From: Actinopolyspora alba
Lineage (GTDB): Bacteria; Actinomycetota; Actinomycetes; Mycobacteriales; Pseudonocardiaceae
Length of the DNA: 64,000 nt
Assembly (NCBI RefSeq): GCF_900112765.1
Contig: NZ_FOMZ01000020.1
Location: forward strand, 1 to 64,000
Direction of reading: 5' to 3'
The notes beneath the pieces are model-generated. The model was not told where the DNA came from and did no database searches. It was given only the letters and a program-made list of their open reading frames with translations. Of this stretch, positions 48,385 through 55,600 are shown piece after piece; the stretch's first letter is position 1; each line of letters begins with the position of its first letter. The position numbers and the translations under genes were made by a program.

Positions 48385-48882
48385 TCAGCCCCTGCCGTAG
48401 TAGGGGATCTCGCAGTTGACGACCTTGTCGTCGAGGTCGGCGTTGTAGCGGTCGATGCCGGGACCGCAGTCGACGACGTCCGCCTCGTCGTCGGAACCGA
48501 GCTCGTCGGACATCACGGTGTCGTCGCCGGGGCCGGCGTAGAGATAGTCACCACCCTGTCCACCGTGGAGGAAATCGTCACCGTTGCCACCTCGGATGAC
48601 GTCATTGCCGGAGTTGCCGAACAGGCTGTCGTCATCGGCCTCGCCGAAGATGACGTCGAAGCCGCCCCGCCCCTTGATCACATCCTGGCCAGGTGTGCCG
48701 TGCAGGCCATCCGGCCCGTCGGTCCCCTCCTGGTGGTTCTCCTCGTCCGCCGCGGCGGTGAGCGTAGGCTGAGCGGGGGAAGGCGCCGCCGCCGCCAACG
48801 GCGCGCCTACCACCAGAGCAGCCGCGGCGATTCCGGTTCCCACCAGTCCGGTAAGGCCGGTTCTCGTACGCGTGGTACGCAC
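48385..48882 (-). CDS. Secreted RTX-type calcium-binding protein
   Basis: 165 residues. A signal peptide (GLVGTGIAAAALVVGAPLAA then AAPS) is followed by nonapeptide Gly-Asp repeats of the hemolysin type. They include GRGGFDVIFG, GNSGNDVIRGGNGDDFLHGG and GPGDDTVMSDE, which form a calcium-binding beta-roll. A C-terminal disulfide pair is likely (VDCGPGID...VVNCEIPYY). There is no catalytic domain, so it is a short structural or lectin-like exoprotein. GTG 48880-48882 with GAAAGGAG upstream. Its leader contains three hairpins. Confidence 0.85.
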   Translation of the reverse strand: MRTTRTRTGLTGLVGTGIAAAALVVGAPLAAAAPSPAQPTLTAAADEENHQEGTDGPDGLHGTPGQDVIKGRGGFDVIFGEADDDSLFGNSGNDVIRGGNGDDFLHGGQGGDYLYAGPGDDTVMSDELGSDDEADVVDCGPGIDRYNADLDDKVVNCEIPYYGRG

Positions 48883-49262: not shown

Positions 49263-49592
49263 GTGGAACTCGAGCACACCGTCGCCGCGCTACGCAGCGC
49301 GGCGCGGGCCAGCCGCGACGCCGGTGACCGCGACCCGGCTTCCGGCCACGACTGTCAGGAGAACCTGAAACCGCTGCGCGCCGCGCTGGGTGAGCTGGCC
49401 GAACCGCTCGGCGGCACCGTCAAGGAGCTGCTCAGTCTGATCGAGCGGAAGCTGCGGGACGAGCTGCATCATGATCCGGAAACGGCGGCGAGGCTCTCCC
49501 GCGCCGTAGCGGCCGCGAACGAATGGACCGACGAGCTGATCGCGTGGCTGCGTCCGCTGGGCGAGCGGCGGGAGGTTCCGCCGAGCGAGTAG
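49263..49592 (+). CDS. Small helical protein, unknown function
   Basis: 109 residues, predicted mostly alpha-helical with heptad-like spacing (VAALRSAARASRDAG; LSLIERKLRDELHHDPETAA). One cysteine. No family recognised. GTG 49263 chosen because GGAAAGGTGGAG lies directly upstream; the frame extends back to 49107 without coding character. Convergent with the five-gene operon, so it is probably not part of it. Confidence 0.6.
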   Translation: MELEHTVAALRSAARASRDAGDRDPASGHDCQENLKPLRAALGELAEPLGGTVKELLSLIERKLRDELHHDPETAARLSRAVAAANEWTDELIAWLRPLGERREVPPSE

Positions 49593-49619: not shown

Positions 49620-50036
49620 TCAGAGGCTCTGGGTGTCCGTGAGGTAGAGCCACTTGCCCGACAGCTCGTCCAACCAGACTCCCTCCTCCTCGATGTCGGG
49701 ATGGACGAACCGGCGCGTATCGCCGAACCGGGACTCGACGGTGACCAGGAAGCTCTCGACCAACCAACCGTCGTCCCCCTCCAGCCGGACATAGGCGGGG
49801 AAGCGGTCCAGGCTCGCCATGCTCAGCCTCGGTCTGCGCGGATCGTTGTACTTCGCGGACTTGGTGTCGCCCGTAGGCCCGAAAGTGATGTGGATGGTGT
49901 CGTTACCCGAGAAGGAACTTCCCTTGTCCATCCGGAATTCCCGGCCCGCCATGCCCAGGAAGAACCTGTCGGTGGCCTCCGTGGCGCTTTCGCTGCCGGA
50001 TTTGGCCTTGATCTCGATCCGTTCGATCCAGCTCAT
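49620..50036 (-). CDS. Unknown protein, last gene of the module-shuffled operon
   Basis: 138 residues, beta-rich and acidic, without signal peptide. Notable stretches are MSWIERIEIKAKSGSESATE, GSSFSGNDTIHITFGPTGDT and GVWLDELSGKWLYLTDTQSL. It could be a small beta-sandwich (PLAT/LH2-like) domain, but I do not recognise the family. Starts 6 bp after the stop of the HTTM-like gene on the same strand, so it is co-transcribed. Confidence 0.75.
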   Translation of the reverse strand: MSWIERIEIKAKSGSESATEATDRFFLGMAGREFRMDKGSSFSGNDTIHITFGPTGDTKSAKYNDPRRPRLSMASLDRFPAYVRLEGDDGWLVESFLVTVESRFGDTRRFVHPDIEEEGVWLDELSGKWLYLTDTQSL

Positions 50037-50042
50037 CGTCGT

Positions 50043-51551
50043 TCACTCCGTTTCAGGAATCCGCTGTCGCACTTCGGATTTCCGCCGCTCGACGACCGGC
50101 GAAATATAACGGGGTCTTCGTCCTCCCGCCCCGTAACCGGGACACTGGTCCACCCGGAACTGGAAGGACACCGTGTTGCCCGTGAAGCGCCCTTCCAACA
50201 GCAGCGATCGGCATACCCGATCAGCCAGCAACCGGAAGGTCGGCAGCTCTGTCAGTCGTTCCGGGCCCCGATCGTGCTGTTCGAGCAGTTCCGAGCAGAC
50301 GTCGAACAACGCCTTGTCCTCTCGGCGTTCCGGGAACCAGAGAATGTGGGCGGGAACTCGTCGCCCAGCACCGGCTTCGGACCACCAGGATGAGGTGTCG
50401 TCGTCCGGATGGACGACGCGATAGGCGACCCGAAAGTCGTGTCCGGCCGGTTCCGGTGCGAAGAACCGCCAGTCGGGCAGCCACACCCCGGCACGGTCGA
50501 GTGCCCGCAGCCGGTCGAGGGCGCGATACGGCAGCTGGCACAGCAGGATGAGCAGAAACCACACCGCCAGTCCGGTCTCCAGCGGACTCGGCCTTCGCAG
50601 CCGGTCCCGAACATGCCGGGGAAATGATCGCTCGCCGGGTACGCGAGGTGCGTTCCTCGCCACCGACCACACCGCCGGATAGGTGGCCAGGAAAGCCCAG
50701 AGGAATCTCCCCAACCCCATGACTCCGGCGGTCACCAGGTGGAACGTGGCCATGGCAGAAAGCACCACCGGTGCGTGTCGTCCTCGGTACGGGAACGCGG
50801 ATCCGAAACCGCACTCCAGCGTGATCACGCAGATCTCCGCCGCGCGCACCAGATGGGGGAACCGGTCGCACCACGTGTGCACCGCGGCGTTGCCGTAAGT
50901 CCTGGTACGCAGCACTCCGGCCAGCGCCCCGCCCGCACGCCAGGGGCGGCCACCGAGCTTGGCCAGTCCGGAGGTCGAGTAGGCGAGCAGCGCCTGTCCG
51001 GCCAACCAGCGCAGGCACGTCCGCACCGCGTGGGGATCGGACTGCCTCACCCGGGCGAGCGTGCAGCCGAACTGCACCAGGAAGGCGAGCTGGTCCGAAC
51101 CGTCGGAGCCGTACTGGTGGCGCGGGTGCAGCAACCGCGAGGCACCCGCGGCCACACCACCGGCCAGCAGGCGCGGCCAGCGCCGAGTCGTCGGGCTCAG
51201 CAGCACACCCGAGGCCAGGATCCGTGCCGTGTGCAGTGCGCGGGTGCCACGCTCACTTCCCACCGCGTCGTAGAGGCGACGCAGTGCGTCGTGATCCCGG
51301 GGGTCGCGCTCGCGCAGCACCGACCAGTTGTTCAGCCCGCCCCAGGCACGGTGTCGTGCGTTGTGCAGGTACTCCAGACTGGCGATCAGCTGAGTGGTCG
51401 CCGAGAGCCGCTCCGACCAGATCAACGCTTCGCGCTCCGCGGCGACGGTATCGCGCACCGCGTCGCGGGCGGGCCTCAACGATCCTGTCGCCCGAACGAG
51501 ATCCGCGAACCGTGGCCACGGGCCACGACGGTTCCGCACCCCCGGCCTCAC
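50043..51551 (-). CDS. HTTM-like integral membrane protein
   Basis: 502 residues. After a soluble, Arg-rich N-terminal ~110 residues come several hydrophobic segments. They include an HTTM/VKG-carboxylase-like core: LLAYSTSGLAKLGGRPWRAG, AAVHTWCDRFPHLVRAAEIC, then FLWAFLATYPAVWSV and WFLLILLCQLPYRAL. The C-terminal ~170 residues are soluble and beta-rich (WLPDWRFFAPEPAGHDFRVA). HTTM proteins may carry out vitamin-K-carboxylase-like chemistry, unproven here. The GTG start overlaps the previous stop as GTGA. Family assignment is moderate. Confidence 0.7.
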   Translation of the reverse strand: MRPGVRNRRGPWPRFADLVRATGSLRPARDAVRDTVAAEREALIWSERLSATTQLIASLEYLHNARHRAWGGLNNWSVLRERDPRDHDALRRLYDAVGSERGTRALHTARILASGVLLSPTTRRWPRLLAGGVAAGASRLLHPRHQYGSDGSDQLAFLVQFGCTLARVRQSDPHAVRTCLRWLAGQALLAYSTSGLAKLGGRPWRAGGALAGVLRTRTYGNAAVHTWCDRFPHLVRAAEICVITLECGFGSAFPYRGRHAPVVLSAMATFHLVTAGVMGLGRFLWAFLATYPAVWSVARNAPRVPGERSFPRHVRDRLRRPSPLETGLAVWFLLILLCQLPYRALDRLRALDRAGVWLPDWRFFAPEPAGHDFRVAYRVVHPDDDTSSWWSEAGAGRRVPAHILWFPERREDKALFDVCSELLEQHDRGPERLTELPTFRLLADRVCRSLLLEGRFTGNTVSFQFRVDQCPGYGAGGRRPRYISPVVERRKSEVRQRIPETE

Positions 51552-52084
51552 GAGGAATCACTCCGGTTTCCGGAGGGCACCGTTTCCGCGTGCCGTTCGG
51601 AGTCCGACTTCTTGTCGTCACCGGCGCAGGATCCACATGACTCCTGCTCCTTCTTACGGCACTCGCAAGGCCCCTGACCGATGCTGCCGAGGATGTTGGC
51701 GAGTGCTTCCAGGATCCGCGCCAGGATGTTGCCCAGCCTGCAACCACCGATGGCCATCAACGCCTGGGTCACGGTGCCGAGCAGCGCTTCGAGTACTTCG
51801 TTGAGCCCGTTGAACGGTGGTTTCGGCGGCGGACCACCACCGGTGGTGGTAACCGATTTGCCACCGGTGGCGGCGGTGTTCTTGTCCGGCTTCTTGTTGT
51901 TGTCGTTCGGGGAGGGGGCCAGGTCGTACCCGTCGGAATAGCCTCTGGCGTAGCCGTCCTTGTAGCCGCGCTCGCCGTCGGTCTCCTGGGGCCGCTTGGG
52001 CTTGCCGGCCATCTTGTCCCGCTGGCCCTGCTCCTCGCCCGCGACCAAACCATCACGATATTCGTTCGCCACGAGATTTCCCAA
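51548..52084 (-). CDS. Module-shuffled operon protein C: GY-rich head, hydrophobic helices, cysteine cluster
   Basis: 178 residues. The N-terminal ~54 residues (YRDGLVAGEEQGQRDKMAGK then YKDGYARGYSDGYD) are almost identical to the head of the next upstream protein, at the DNA level too (~90%). A Pro/Gly/Thr linker leads to a hydrophobic amphipathic stretch (LNEVLEALLGTVTQALMAIG, LGNILARILEALANILGSIG). A cysteine cluster then follows: CECRKKEQESCGSC. No signal peptide. TTG start. The hydrophobic part could insert in membranes or oligomerise. The stop overlaps the HTTM-like gene (GTGA). Confidence 0.75.
   Translation of the reverse strand: MGNLVANEYRDGLVAGEEQGQRDKMAGKPKRPQETDGERGYKDGYARGYSDGYDLAPSPNDNNKKPDKNTAATGGKSVTTTGGGPPPKPPFNGLNEVLEALLGTVTQALMAIGGCRLGNILARILEALANILGSIGQGPCECRKKEQESCGSCAGDDKKSDSERHAETVPSGNRSDSS
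51914..52059 (-). repeat. Head-module repeat, copy in gene C (partner 52295-52440)
   Basis: About 146 bp in gene C matches 52295-52440 in gene B at roughly 90% identity, in direct orientation and offset 381 bp. It encodes the shared N-terminal KMAGKPKxPQETDGExGYKD module. Recent duplication or gene conversion. Confidence 0.8.
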
Positions 52085-52117
52085 ATTCGGCCGACTGGGG
52101 GCTCATCCACTTCGCAC

Positions 52118-52456
52118 TCACTCGGAATCCCGCTGTTTTATCCCGTAACGCTTCCAGGCGTCCTTCCAGGCATCCCTCCTGCCTTCGGCATAGGCGTCGT
52201 CGGCCTCCTGCTGCTTGCTCTTCCGACACTCCTCGAGCTGCCGCTTCACCTTTTCGTGCTCTTTTTTGGATACGGTTTCCTCTTTCTCAGGCTCGGGGGC
52301 CTGGTCGTATCCGTCGGAGTATCCCTTGGCGTAGCCGTCCTTGTAGCCGTGCTCGCCGTCGGTCTCCTGGGGCTGCTTGGGCTTGCCGGCCATCTTGTCC
52401 TTCTGGCCCTGCTGCTCGCCGTCGACCAAACCATCGCGATACTTGTTGTCGGACAT
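52118..52456 (-). CDS. Module-shuffled operon protein B: GY-rich head plus coiled-coil tail
   Basis: 112 residues made almost entirely of two shared modules. The head YRDGLVDGEQQGQKDKMAGK then GYKDGYAKGYSDGYD matches protein C. A charged linker and coiled-coil (KKEHEKVKRQLEECRKSKQ) lead into the tail DDAYAEGRRDAWKDAWKRYG, which matches the C-terminus of protein A. Soluble, no signal peptide. ATG 52454-52456 with GAGAGGA upstream. No known family; it looks like a linker or adaptor between A and C. Confidence 0.8.
   Translation of the reverse strand: MSDNKYRDGLVDGEQQGQKDKMAGKPKQPQETDGEHGYKDGYAKGYSDGYDQAPEPEKEETVSKKEHEKVKRQLEECRKSKQQEADDAYAEGRRDAWKDAWKRYGIKQRDSE
52141..52237 (-). repeat. Tail-module repeat, copy in gene B (partner 52513-52609)
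   Basis: 97 bp shared between the 3' ends of genes B and A (52513-52609) with about three mismatches, direct orientation, offset 372 bp. It encodes the shared LEECRKSKQxxxDDAYAEGR tail. Confidence 0.85.
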
Positions 52457-52498
52457 CGAGTCCTCTCTTCGGAGTCGGACGAATATCAGGGACGGATC

Positions 52499-53239
52499 TC
52501 AGTTCTTGTTGATCCCGTAACGCTTCCAGGCGTCCTTCCAGGCATCCCTCCTGCCTTCGGCATAGGCGTCGTCGATCTCCCGCTGCTTGCTCTTCCGACA
52601 CTCCTCGAGTTCGCGCCGGCACTCCGCGAGCTTCTGTTCGCAGTCCCTCTCGTTCGTACCGTGCTCCCCGTTGTCCGAGCCCTCGCCGGTCTCGAACACT
52701 CGAACGTCGGTGATTCCGGCCTGGCAACTGAACGAATCGTTTCCGTGGAACTCGACCGTGGTCTCACCCGACTCCGCCGTGAACTGAAGCTTCGCGTCCC
52801 TGTGCCAGGAGGGAACCGGCGGGTCGGGGGTGAAACCCGCGTCGAAGTGGTGGGACTCGATCACCTCCCCCGACCTCTCGTCACGTATCTTCACGGTGAA
52901 GTCGTTCGGTTTTCCGACACAGTTCTGCCAGACGTTCGGGCCGTGATCGAAAACCAGCCGGTAGCTGTTTCCCCGCTTCGTTTCGATGGTCTGCTTGATT
53001 CCACCGTTCGGCTGAAACTCCTGCCCGAGATCGACCGCTGGGCAGTTCTTCTCGTGCTTGGCGAAGGCAGCACTGAGATAGTCGAAACCCCCCGACTGCG
53101 AATTACCCCCACTGGGGATGTAAATGGCCTCCCAGGGATCGGGCCAGTAGGGCGGTTGAATAATACTCGAATTCCACCAGTTCGCCGGAGGTGGCGACTT
53201 CTTCTCGAACCGCCCGTTCTTTATCAGGTTTTCCCCCAC
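52499..53239 (-). CDS. Module-shuffled operon protein A: carbohydrate-binding-like beta domain plus coiled-coil tail
   Basis: 246 residues. The N-terminal ~190 residues resemble a DUF642/galactose-binding-like beta-sandwich: ENLIKNGRFEKKSPPPANWW, VDLGQEFQPNGGIKQTIETK, YRLVFDHGPNVW, DAKLQFTAESGETTVEFHGN and CQAGITDVRVFE. A Cys-spaced coiled-coil (CEQKLAECRRELEECRKSKQ) follows, then the tail DAYAEGRRDAWKDAWKRYGI shared with protein B. GTG 53237-53239 is chosen because GGAGGG lies just upstream; a TTG 75 bp earlier is possible. No signal peptide seen. First gene of the operon. Confidence 0.78.
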   Translation of the reverse strand: MGENLIKNGRFEKKSPPPANWWNSSIIQPPYWPDPWEAIYIPSGGNSQSGGFDYLSAAFAKHEKNCPAVDLGQEFQPNGGIKQTIETKRGNSYRLVFDHGPNVWQNCVGKPNDFTVKIRDERSGEVIESHHFDAGFTPDPPVPSWHRDAKLQFTAESGETTVEFHGNDSFSCQAGITDVRVFETGEGSDNGEHGTNERDCEQKLAECRRELEECRKSKQREIDDAYAEGRRDAWKDAWKRYGINKN

Positions 53240-53725: not shown

Positions 53726-55600
53726 TCATGGCCGGTAGTCCTCCAGGCGGGCCGGATCCCAGATTCGTTCCACCAGGGCTCGAACCAGCTTGCTCCGCTC
53801 CTCGTGCTCGGCCTTGCCGAACCGCTCATAGGGCCGAAACGGCAGGCCGGACCGCTCCACGAAGGAACTGAACTGGGGCTGATGCTGGTAGGCGGCGCTG
53901 GTCAGGCTCGCGGCGTAGAAGTTCTGCTTCGCGTAGTGCGGCGCCTTCCGCTCGAACGGCTTGTCCTGGTAGCTGCGGTTCACGTCGGCGGGCAGCAGCA
54001 CCAGACCGGCGACATGGTCACGCCACAGGTCGAAGTCCTCGCGGCTCGGACACTCGTCGGCGTAGCGCTCGTGGTGGTCGGGCCAGATGTGCTCGATCTC
54101 CCACGGGTTCTTCAACGTCCGGTCCACCAGTTCGTCGAAGCGATCGGGCTTACCGGCTCCGCGCTCGGTGTAGGCGGTCAGTCGGGCCAGCAAGTGGTAG
54201 ATGTAGCGCCTGCTGAACTGGTTCAGCCCGAGTCCCGCGATGCCGCGCCGATAGCGGCTCGGACTCCCGTCGAACGAGACATCGGCCTCGTCCTGATCCA
54301 GCTTCGACCGCAGGGTGTCGATCAGATCCGACAACGACATGCCACGGATGTCGCGGCACAGCAACCACATGGCGTAGTTGACACTCGAGTAACTGATCCG
54401 GATGTAGTTGGCGGCTCGGCGCATCACCCAGATATCGAGGTAGGTCGCGGTCGCCGCGAGCTTGCGGCGTACGGTCTCGTCCTCGTCACCGACCCTGAGC
54501 GGAGCCAGCAGCACGGTGCTCTGCCAGGTGAACTCGTTGTGCGCGTTGTAGAACACCGGTTCCAGACCCGAGGTGTAGCCGCGCGAGGCCTCCAAGACCT
54601 TCCGGTACGCCCGCGCGAAGAACGGCACCTCGTTGGTCATCAGGGCGAGGTTGCGCCCCGCGTCGCCCACGCCGACGCGGCTGGTGTTGTCACGGACCCA
54701 GCGGTGGAACGTGGAACCGATCAGTTCCCAGTCACGGTCGAGGGCACCCGCACGACGCTCCCGGATCGACTCGGCGTACTTGGCACGGAGCCATGCCTTG
54801 ACGAAGGTGGCGTCGCGTTCCGCGTCGGGGTCGGGCTCCCAGGAAGTCAGGTCCAGCAGCGTCTTCTTCCAAATACGGTTCGCGTTCGCCCGCTCGCCCT
54901 CGTCTTCCACCGCACCGAGCAGATACGCCTTCAGCATGTCCACCGGGCTCAACGGTTTGCCCCGGTCGTTCATCGTCTCGAAGATCGAGTACGCGTGCGC
55001 GTCGGTCTCGGTCGCGATCTCGATCAACCCGACATTGCCGATCAACCAATAGACGAACGGCTCCAGCCCCTCGCCGAGCTCGTCCGCCGGATCGATCGAC
55101 ACGAGGTCGTTGTACCGAGCGACGATCGTCCGGATCGACTCGTCCTTGCCCTCGGCGTCGTAGTCCGCACCGGCGAACAACGCCCGGAGCGCCGGCACGC
55201 GCTCGGCGATGTCGAGGTTGAACTTCGGCTCGCCGTAGTCATCGGAGAAGATCAACGGCTCCACCGTGGAGGTCACCCTGAGCCCGCGCTGCCGCGCCAC
55301 CCGGTACAGGTAAATCAGCAGCAACGTCAGGGAGGTGACCCGCTGCTGGCCATCGACCAGGTAGCTCTTGTTGCCACGCCTGGTCACGATGATCGAACCG
55401 AGGAAGTAGTCGCCGTAATCGCTGGCGTCCCTCGGTGTGTCGCCGGTGCGGTAGAACGTCGAGAACCTGTTCTGCAGGTCGGTGACCAGTTCCTCGATGT
55501 TCTCCCGGTCCCACTTGTACTCCCGCTGGTACTCGTCGATCGCGAAGGAACGGGACTGCAGCAGCTCCTTGATCGTGCGGTAGTGCGGCGTGATGCTCAT
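53726..55600 (-). CDS. DUF262 / DUF1524 protein, GmrSD-type restriction-like
   Basis: 624 residues. The N-terminal DUF262 (ParB/Srx-like fold) has the NTPase-type motif SYLVDGQQRVTSLTLLLIYL and GDYFLGSIIV. The C-terminal DUF1524 HNH-like nuclease has NPWEIEHIWPDHHERYADE with the family Ile-Glu-His signature. Fused GmrSD proteins are type IV restriction enzymes that attack modified phage DNA. No modification genes or Ssp/Dnd/BREX partners lie beside it, so it may act alone. ATG 55598-55600 with GGGGAGAAG upstream. Confidence 0.87.
   Translation of the reverse strand: MSITPHYRTIKELLQSRSFAIDEYQREYKWDRENIEELVTDLQNRFSTFYRTGDTPRDASDYGDYFLGSIIVTRRGNKSYLVDGQQRVTSLTLLLIYLYRVARQRGLRVTSTVEPLIFSDDYGEPKFNLDIAERVPALRALFAGADYDAEGKDESIRTIVARYNDLVSIDPADELGEGLEPFVYWLIGNVGLIEIATETDAHAYSIFETMNDRGKPLSPVDMLKAYLLGAVEDEGERANANRIWKKTLLDLTSWEPDPDAERDATFVKAWLRAKYAESIRERRAGALDRDWELIGSTFHRWVRDNTSRVGVGDAGRNLALMTNEVPFFARAYRKVLEASRGYTSGLEPVFYNAHNEFTWQSTVLLAPLRVGDEDETVRRKLAATATYLDIWVMRRAANYIRISYSSVNYAMWLLCRDIRGMSLSDLIDTLRSKLDQDEADVSFDGSPSRYRRGIAGLGLNQFSRRYIYHLLARLTAYTERGAGKPDRFDELVDRTLKNPWEIEHIWPDHHERYADECPSREDFDLWRDHVAGLVLLPADVNRSYQDKPFERKAPHYAKQNFYAASLTSAAYQHQPQFSSFVERSGLPFRPYERFGKAEHEERSKLVRALVERIWDPARLEDYRP

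Follow-up and report, generated by a model that had tools for sequence, protein, structure and literature searches.

A five-gene operon of Actinopolyspora with exchanged head and tail modules and an HTTM-LinL fusion protein

The stretch of DNA analysed here (the window) comprises 64,000 nucleotides of the halophile Actinopolyspora alba, positions 1 to 64,000 of contig NZ_FOMZ01000020.1. Between 49620 and 53239 it carries five reading frames, termed A, B, C, the HTTM-like gene (product P0004) and the small beta protein. All lie on the minus strand, with rechecked coordinates. The spacing is 42 nucleotides (nt) between A and B, 33 nt between B and C (measured to a TTG of C) and 6 nt between the HTTM-like and small beta genes; C and the HTTM-like gene overlap by GTGA. 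An earlier note, made from the letters alone, had described one five-gene unit, and the recomputed frames and gaps bear this out. The features are:

52499..53239, minus strand: gene A, DUF642/choice-of-anchor-C-like domain and C-terminal tail module; frame open back to TTG 53314
52742..53227, minus strand: DUF642-like domain of A (Pfam E 7e-5, below gathering score); joined to the C core in A. biskrensis
52502..52624, minus strand: tail module of A, LEECRKSKQ..DDAYAEGRRDAWKDAWKRYG
52118..52456, minus strand: gene B, 112 amino acids (aa), a chimera that combines a head with a tail; putative adaptor
52286..52450, minus strand: head module of B, with a Gly-every-4 register
52124..52255, minus strand: tail module of B, Ala-Trp tail
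51548..52072, minus strand: gene C, head, Thr/Gly/Pro linker and hydrophobic Cys-rich core; conserved GTG start at 52072
51905..52072, minus strand: head module of C, Gly-Tyr head
51605..51856, minus strand: core of C, TTTGG-PPPKPP-hydrophobic helices-CRLGNILA-Cys cluster; omega 0.01-0.03
50043..51551, minus strand: HTTM-LinL fusion protein (P0004), 502 aa
50628..51434, minus strand: HTTM half of P0004, related to the N-terminal half of LinH; keeps YGxDGxDQ and GxxKxxxxxW motifs
50103..50579, minus strand: LinL-like half of P0004, with the PxWxxFxPxP motif
49620..50036, minus strand: small beta protein, PLAT/LH2-like predicted fold, moderate confidence
52295..52447, no strand assigned: direct repeat, B head copy; pairs with the C head at 51914-52066, 90%
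52137..52244, no strand assigned: direct repeat, B tail copy; pairs with the A tail at 52509-52616, 94%

Comparisons were made chiefly with A. righensis (G097), A. biskrensis (G188) and a further Actinopolyspora genome, G177; the window genome is G000. Two start codons call for comment. The C start noted earlier, TTG 52084, is absent in G177, and GTG 52072 is kept in all three genomes and is thus the better choice. The A start, GTG 53239, is provisional, as the codon is GCG in A. righensis.

Head and tail modules

B is a chimera of the head of C and the tail of A, as first proposed, and the likeness is far beyond chance. On recomputation, 132 of 146 base pairs (bp) are identical in the head (51914-52059 versus 52295-52440) and 94 of 97 in the tail (52141-52237 versus 52513-52609). 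In a repeat search the head pair reaches 153 nt (90%) and the tail pair 108 nt (94%); elsewhere in the window, on both strands and without gaps, the tail finds at best 55 of 97 or fewer identities besides the two copies. Head and tail share a pattern: a small residue at every fourth position, mostly followed by an aromatic one. Seven of the nine Gly residues of the head fall in one phase of four (p about 0.005).

The modules recur at a second locus in the window genome, G097 and G177, where a DUF642-like tail protein (A2) is followed by a head-only protein of 73-74 aa. At the second locus of the window genome the two stand without an HTTM gene, and therefore the head and tail pair is not tied to the HTTM system. 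The A2 gene of G038 has degraded and lost its tail, and a head gene is not seen there. Do head and tail travel together, as the earlier note proposed to check? With B as query at E 0.001, ten Actinopolyspora genomes have either both (three) or neither (seven). Since A2 and the head-only protein form a minimal set, a pairing of head with tail is the simplest rule; applied to A, B and C, it would place the A tail on the B head and the B tail on the C head.

The domain that precedes the tail in A was earlier called carbohydrate-binding-like. Weak matches agree with this: DUF642 (PF04862; 23 bits against a gathering score of 27), choice-of-anchor C (E 1e-7) and a PDB chain of an alpha-amylase (2c3v, E 0.002). 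Both family matches fall below the curated cut-offs, and support for the label is weak. DUF642 scores of A2 (14.3 bits) and of the A. biskrensis fusion described below (17.7 bits) are likewise under the gathering score.

The HTTM-LinL protein and the core

The earlier note had recognized a relationship of P0004 to HTTM proteins and missed its second half. By homology, P0004 is a fusion of the HTTM half of LinH with LinL. It matches the HTTM half of LinH-type proteins at E 5.8e-54 (genome G417) and 8.8e-20 (locus L039), and LinL at E 9.7e-28 (G417). At L039, a cypemycin-type cluster, the match table shows the first piece, and LinL was found by pairwise comparison (E 4e-8). Beyond the operon there are seven P0004-like loci, and in six of these the match breaks into two pieces (residues about 1-310 and 320-483) that belong to different genes, about 4 kb apart at most. 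The first piece is an HTTM gene, or the N-terminal half of a protein of HTTM plus alpha/beta hydrolase (L035 and L039, by Pfam), and the second is a LinL-like gene. A sample of the phylum has P0004 matches in at least 6 of 396 genomes, a lower bound, as up to three candidates were scored per genome.

What accompanies these relatives? NCBIfam models recognize a cypemycin-type precursor at L039 (linaridin_CypA, E 1.5e-28) and a linaridin precursor at L038 (E 3.5e-32); one of the two small genes of L035 gives a weak linaridin precursor match (E 0.02). An alpha/beta hydrolase is present in L034, L035 and L039. L034 is a linaridin-like cluster of the window genome (C39:25000-39000) with HTTM and LinL-like genes, an ABC transporter, the hydrolase, a DCC1-like oxidoreductase, a LuxR-type regulator (the last by eye) and two small hydrophobic precursor-like genes, which match no linaridin or other NCBIfam model. 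At L040 (3485-7478), an HTTM and LinL-like pair stands beside three related NHLP-type proteins that begin like leader peptides and vary in their tails. Of these, the two that were scanned match the Os1348 NHLP clan model (40.5 bits, with a cut-off of 40, and 37.5 bits), so that this enzyme pair is accompanied here by another class of precursor.

Conservation within the enzymes is pronounced. Residues invariant in ten HTTM sequences include R144, G148, D150, K198, W204, E246 and H271, and PxWxxFxPxP is common to 11 LinL sequences. In a tree of 12 rows, the core-linked Actinopolyspora enzymes form one clade (100/99) that adjoins the LinH/LinL-type pair of G417 (100/100); the deeper order is unsure because of two long branches. 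The HTTM alignment and tree are without L036 (G559), whose HTTM gene was not called. DUF5819 matches LinL of L039 and of L035 at E 5e-4, short of its cut-off, and LinL of L058 at E 0.017; LinL of L040 gives no match.

The functions ascribed to such genes are themselves tentative. Passages of one paper suspect the HTTM, hydrolase and LinL genes of encoding the linaridin dehydration enzymes, the mechanism being unclear, and treat a LinL homologue as the usual marker for identifying linaridin clusters (PMC9927463). LinH or LinL is likewise named for linaridin dehydration in part of another (PMC7794033), and an excerpt of a third cites grmL as a possible epimerase gene (PMC10373908). A link of the HTTM half to vitamin-K carboxylase stays an idea: the HTTM alignment, used as a profile query against PDB, matched nothing at E up to 10. 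Lys218 starts the carboxylase reaction according to an excerpt of PMC9146348, and the invariant Lys 198 of P0004 may correspond to it.

Upstream of the HTTM-like gene, C ends in a core of about 84 residues made of a Thr/Gly/Pro linker, two amphipathic hydrophobic helices and a Cys cluster. There are seven copies of the core in five genomes. Six representatives have in common TT-G, a Pro-rich stretch, the two helices, CRLGxILA and four invariant Cys, one of them the Cys of CRLG. Helical moments exceed those of shuffled sequences (p <=0.005 for four helices, with ends chosen by eye). The earlier note had already described amphipathic helices and a Cys cluster in C. Judged by its codons, the core is under strong purifying selection: omega is 0.01-0.03 among G000, G097 and G177. 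For the HTTM-LinL gene these three genomes give 0.31-0.32, and comparisons with G188 as much as 0.47. Profile searches of PDB with the core, the head, the LinL half and the small beta protein gave nothing better than E 0.087.

The earlier note had made its reading depend on co-occurrence with the HTTM-like gene. HTTM/LinL directly follows the core in six of the seven copies, the exception being L057 of G177. The part before the core varies: a Gly-Tyr head in three copies, a DUF642-like domain in one, (TGSPTPPP)n in two and an undefined domain in one. The (TGSPTPPP)n sequences are in frame, at about 6310-6490 in L058 and 6980-7140 in L059. L058 has a galactosyltransferase-like gene nearby (Glyco_transf_7C, 26.6 bits versus 23) and a weaker glycosyltransferase-like one (E 0.15); the neighbours of L059 look glycosyltransferase-like too, by eye. 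These two core relatives are possibly glycosylated. In L057 (6972-9264) an orphan core, P0007, is fused to the undefined domain; P0007 looks beta-propeller-like by eye (Pfam gives only SSL_N, E 0.13). No HTTM gene was called in the 13-kb stretch, and the core adjoins a gene pair that resembles, by eye, the TnpA/TnpB transposase pair of IS200/IS605.

Within the searches made, the CRLGNILA core was found only in Actinopolyspora: the core profile has matches in 5 of 249 family genomes, and a core scan of genome contigs gave four loci, all from this genus. In samples of the phylum, a single genome was matched by the head profile (1 of 346), the tail profile (1 of 326) and likewise the small protein (1 of 326); each time it was the window genome, which is the only Actinopolyspora among the rows listed. 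Such absences are not absolute, as the searches score limited candidates per genome.

The small beta protein looks PLAT-like in fold, with moderate confidence. Its best AlphaFold2 model (three rows) has a pLDDT of 67.4 and a pTM of 0.66, the other four being worse (56 to 29). Foldseek ranks pancreatic lipases, 5-lipoxygenase and clostridial phospholipases C first (probability 1.00 and E 0.008 for the best, query TM 0.40 to 0.51), all of them proteins with PLAT/LH2 domains; C2 domains rank lower, and none of 302 matches reaches E 0.001. Pfam gave no match for the three proteins searched (the small beta protein and its relatives) at E up to 10. Of the seven core loci, the three whose A domain is intact also have an intact copy of the gene, and the remaining four have a decayed one or none; in G177, it and A have decayed together. 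A match to it in G134 (E 7e-4) is probably due to chance, as it lies in a 488-aa frame among genes that are cobalamin-like by eye.

Fusion, proposed adaptor and competing readings

At the same site beside LeuRS, A. biskrensis has a single frame of 371 aa (339 if begun at an internal GTG) that joins a DUF642-like domain, 70% identical to A, to a core 87% identical to that of C. The fused HTTM-LinL gene and then the small beta gene follow. B, head and tail were not found there: with B or A2 as query, the genome gives no match at E 0.001. Compared as sequences, then, the two parts are covalently joined in A. biskrensis and split in the window, and B, head and tail are present in the three split-type genomes, in one of which A has since decayed. 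Because A and core are fused where B is missing, B looks like a non-covalent linker that replaces the fusion. The earlier image of a binding head, an adaptor and a membrane-active part is thereby upheld in part.

How might the parts work together? The core of C would be an effector or anchoring peptide; homology and the order of the genes suggest that the 502-aa HTTM-LinL membrane enzyme takes it as its substrate. By analogy with linaridins, the enzyme might dehydrate or epimerise residues, perhaps near the invariant TT-G or in the helices. A would supply a DUF642-like binding domain, its tail docking on the head of B, and the tail of B would dock on the head of C, with B as the adaptor; this coupling is suggested by the fusion counterpart and by co-occurrence. 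The PLAT-like protein may serve the A domain as a helper, probably on a lipid surface. The product might be exported, and it may have an antagonistic or a surface role. We give a probability of about 0.45 to the reading that the operon is a three-part version of a two-domain product, with the core as substrate of HTTM-LinL and B as adaptor.

A number of observations weigh against it. The fusion counterpart comes from one genome, and B relatives are found in 3 of 297 family genomes, all Actinopolyspora; heads and tails are known from three genomes only. P0004 matches Pfam HTTM (PF05090) at 15.5 bits (E 0.013), under the gathering score of 27.7, and DUF5819 not at all at E up to 1; it also has only three separate windows that reach a Kyte-Doolittle mean of 1.0, which is weak for a multi-pass membrane protein. 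The HTTM model scores a split relative in L058 at 15.8 bits and the LinH-type protein of L035 at 11.9, and so misses the latter as well. A review passage lists cypemycin among products of kinases and lyases and ascribes its dehydration to these rather than to LinH/LinL (PMC10880069). An alpha/beta hydrolase, as in the C-terminal half of LinH or in CrdE, has no match among the five operon proteins, and there are no exporter or protease genes among the five. The first 60 residues of C have no hydrophobic stretch (maximum KD19 -1.13), and C is thus without a Sec-like signal peptide by hydropathy. In G177, A is a decayed remnant beside an intact B, which must therefore act without this A. Within each of the two A-carrying genomes, finally, the tails of A and B are the same at each of the 31 third codon positions, and these positions differ between the two genomes; part of the tail similarity may thus reflect gene conversion or recency.

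These last two points favour the strongest rival, in which recent duplication and gene conversion left the modules behind, B has a private role or none, and A and C are not brought together by it. We regard this as unlikely. B is under purifying selection (omega 0.03-0.15): from G000 to G177 its tail shows six synonymous changes and no non-synonymous one, with a synonymous rate (dS) of 0.33 and a non-synonymous rate (dN) of 0. In three of three genomes head and tail occur together at two separate loci, and the A-core fusion lacks exactly these modules. Between G000 and G177 the head of B differs by 12 non-synonymous and 10 synonymous changes, and between G000 and G097 by 1 and 6. The changes in G177 fit the loss of the head's partner A, the counts being small.

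A second rival keeps the assembly in the cell: the core would be anchored in or inserted into the membrane via HTTM-LinL and would display the DUF642-like domain, with no toxin role. The missing signal peptide and exporter, the very slow evolution of the core and the PLAT-like partner all agree with it. We think it quite improbable, as relatives of HTTM/LinL adjoin curated linaridin precursors, and the two cores with (TGSPTPPP)n leaders and glycosyltransferase-like genes nearby (those of L059 by eye) are what one might expect of an exported product.

A wider proposal, doubtful at present, would make this a bacterial effector of a kind not described before. In it, a peptide domain matured by HTTM-LinL would take interchangeable partners at its N-terminal side, through gene fusion or through an orthogonal helical plug and socket (Gly-Tyr head and Ala-Trp tail) that a double-ended adaptor bridges. 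One conserved peptide would then suit various binding domains with no covalent link. The head and tail may represent a new small docking pair, and the operon a variant of HTTM/LinL-dependent peptide systems. The fused and adaptor-linked arrangements in sister species form a natural pair for the study of non-covalent assembly. LinH and LinL probably act on short linaridin precursors. P0004 is a compact single-chain enzyme to test, and a hydrolase-free relative that accompanies a multi-domain protein would narrow what HTTM and LinL can do alone.

Several neighbouring genes were also seen. Directly upstream of the operon is a GmrSD-type restriction endonuclease gene (53726-55600, minus strand; GmrSD_N E 5e-33, GmrSD_C E 3e-8), which is present in G097; in G177 and G188, the gene calls from LeuRS to the operon do not include it. 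On the other side are a protein of about 104 aa (about 49287-49592, plus strand) and, beyond it, a small protein with RTX calcium-binding nonapeptide repeats (48385-48882, minus strand; E 6e-22 for the window copy, which was scanned). Similar RTX-type proteins adjoin the operon in G097, G177 and G188, where the 104-aa protein is seen too; its G097 copy gives a weak Pfam match to Acyl-CoA_dh_C (E 0.34).

Comparison with known systems

Is the operon part of a described family? The earlier note had held that a known toxin or surface-layer system would undo its reading, and profile searches of Pfam, NCBIfam and PHROGs at E up to 1 show no such match. PHROGs gave weak matches for A (E 2e-4, function not given), B (a tail fiber family, E 0.024) and C (E 0.4). 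Anti-phage defence was rejected, with no PADLOC match for the five proteins at E up to 0.1, as were origins from a phage or a plasmid: tblastn at E up to 0.01 found neither B among 50,697 phage records nor C among 72,556 plasmid records. Among the open-licence PubMed Central (PMC) papers listed that combine at least two of Actinopolyspora, linaridin, HTTM and DUF642, no title or abstract excerpt describes this make-up, and PMC papers on linaridins or DUF5819 since 2021, among the matches listed, do not use DUF5819.

The A domain, A2 and the A. biskrensis fusion resemble DUF642 and choice-of-anchor C proteins (E 8e-8 to 0.035, below curated cut-offs) and differ in what the domain is coupled to, either the tail as a putative docking module or the core. 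In fold, the small protein is similar to PLAT/LH2 domains (Foldseek E 0.008), but it is a stand-alone domain with no sequence match. The Gly-every-4 motif of the head recalls the deca-GX3 motifs of Yae1-Lto1, which are required for formation of that complex, its partners acting in a chain of binding events (PMC4523923). Differences are that Yae1_N matches B at E 0.36 (11 bits versus a cut-off of 27.5), and that the operon is bacterial and has two motif types, Gly-Tyr head and Ala-Trp tail, with both in one protein.

With SdpABC, the cannibalism toxin system of Bacillus, the operon shares an HTTM-type membrane protein, a small partner and a hydrophobic Cys-containing peptide. The SdpABC pro-toxin bears a Sec signal peptide, and C differs in having none by hydropathy. 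Could C be a secreted toxin of this type, matured by proteolysis and disulfide formation, with the HTTM and soluble halves of P0004 in the places of SdpB and SdpA? The invariant Cys and the partner domain are in its favour, but sequence similarity favours LinH/LinL, and no NCBIfam family matches P0004 at E up to 1 (whether the library includes an SdpB model is unchecked), which makes this reading still less probable than that of a cell-retained assembly.

The closest likeness is to the linaridins (cypemycin, grisemycin and corynaridin), products with dehydrated Thr (Dhb), with LinH as HTTM plus alpha/beta hydrolase, and LinL. The operon has a LinL homologue and an HTTM protein of the LinH/CrdG kind, and a hydrophobic peptide gene directly upstream of HTTM, as linaridin clusters do. 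A true linaridin cluster that merely lost its hydrolase is very improbable, for all that the HTTM and LinL halves are those of linaridin clusters, as no precursor model matches C or its relatives P0007, P0008 and P0009 (0 of 4 at E up to 1) and hydrolase, ABC exporter, methyltransferase and decarboxylase are all missing among the five genes. Without hydrolase, exporter, linaridin leader or a signal peptide on C, this is not a canonical linaridin. HTTM and LinL, elsewhere separate genes, are fused here, and what is proposed as the substrate forms the C-terminal part of a bigger, modular protein. The operon is best read as a modular peptide/protein system that uses a linaridin-type enzyme.

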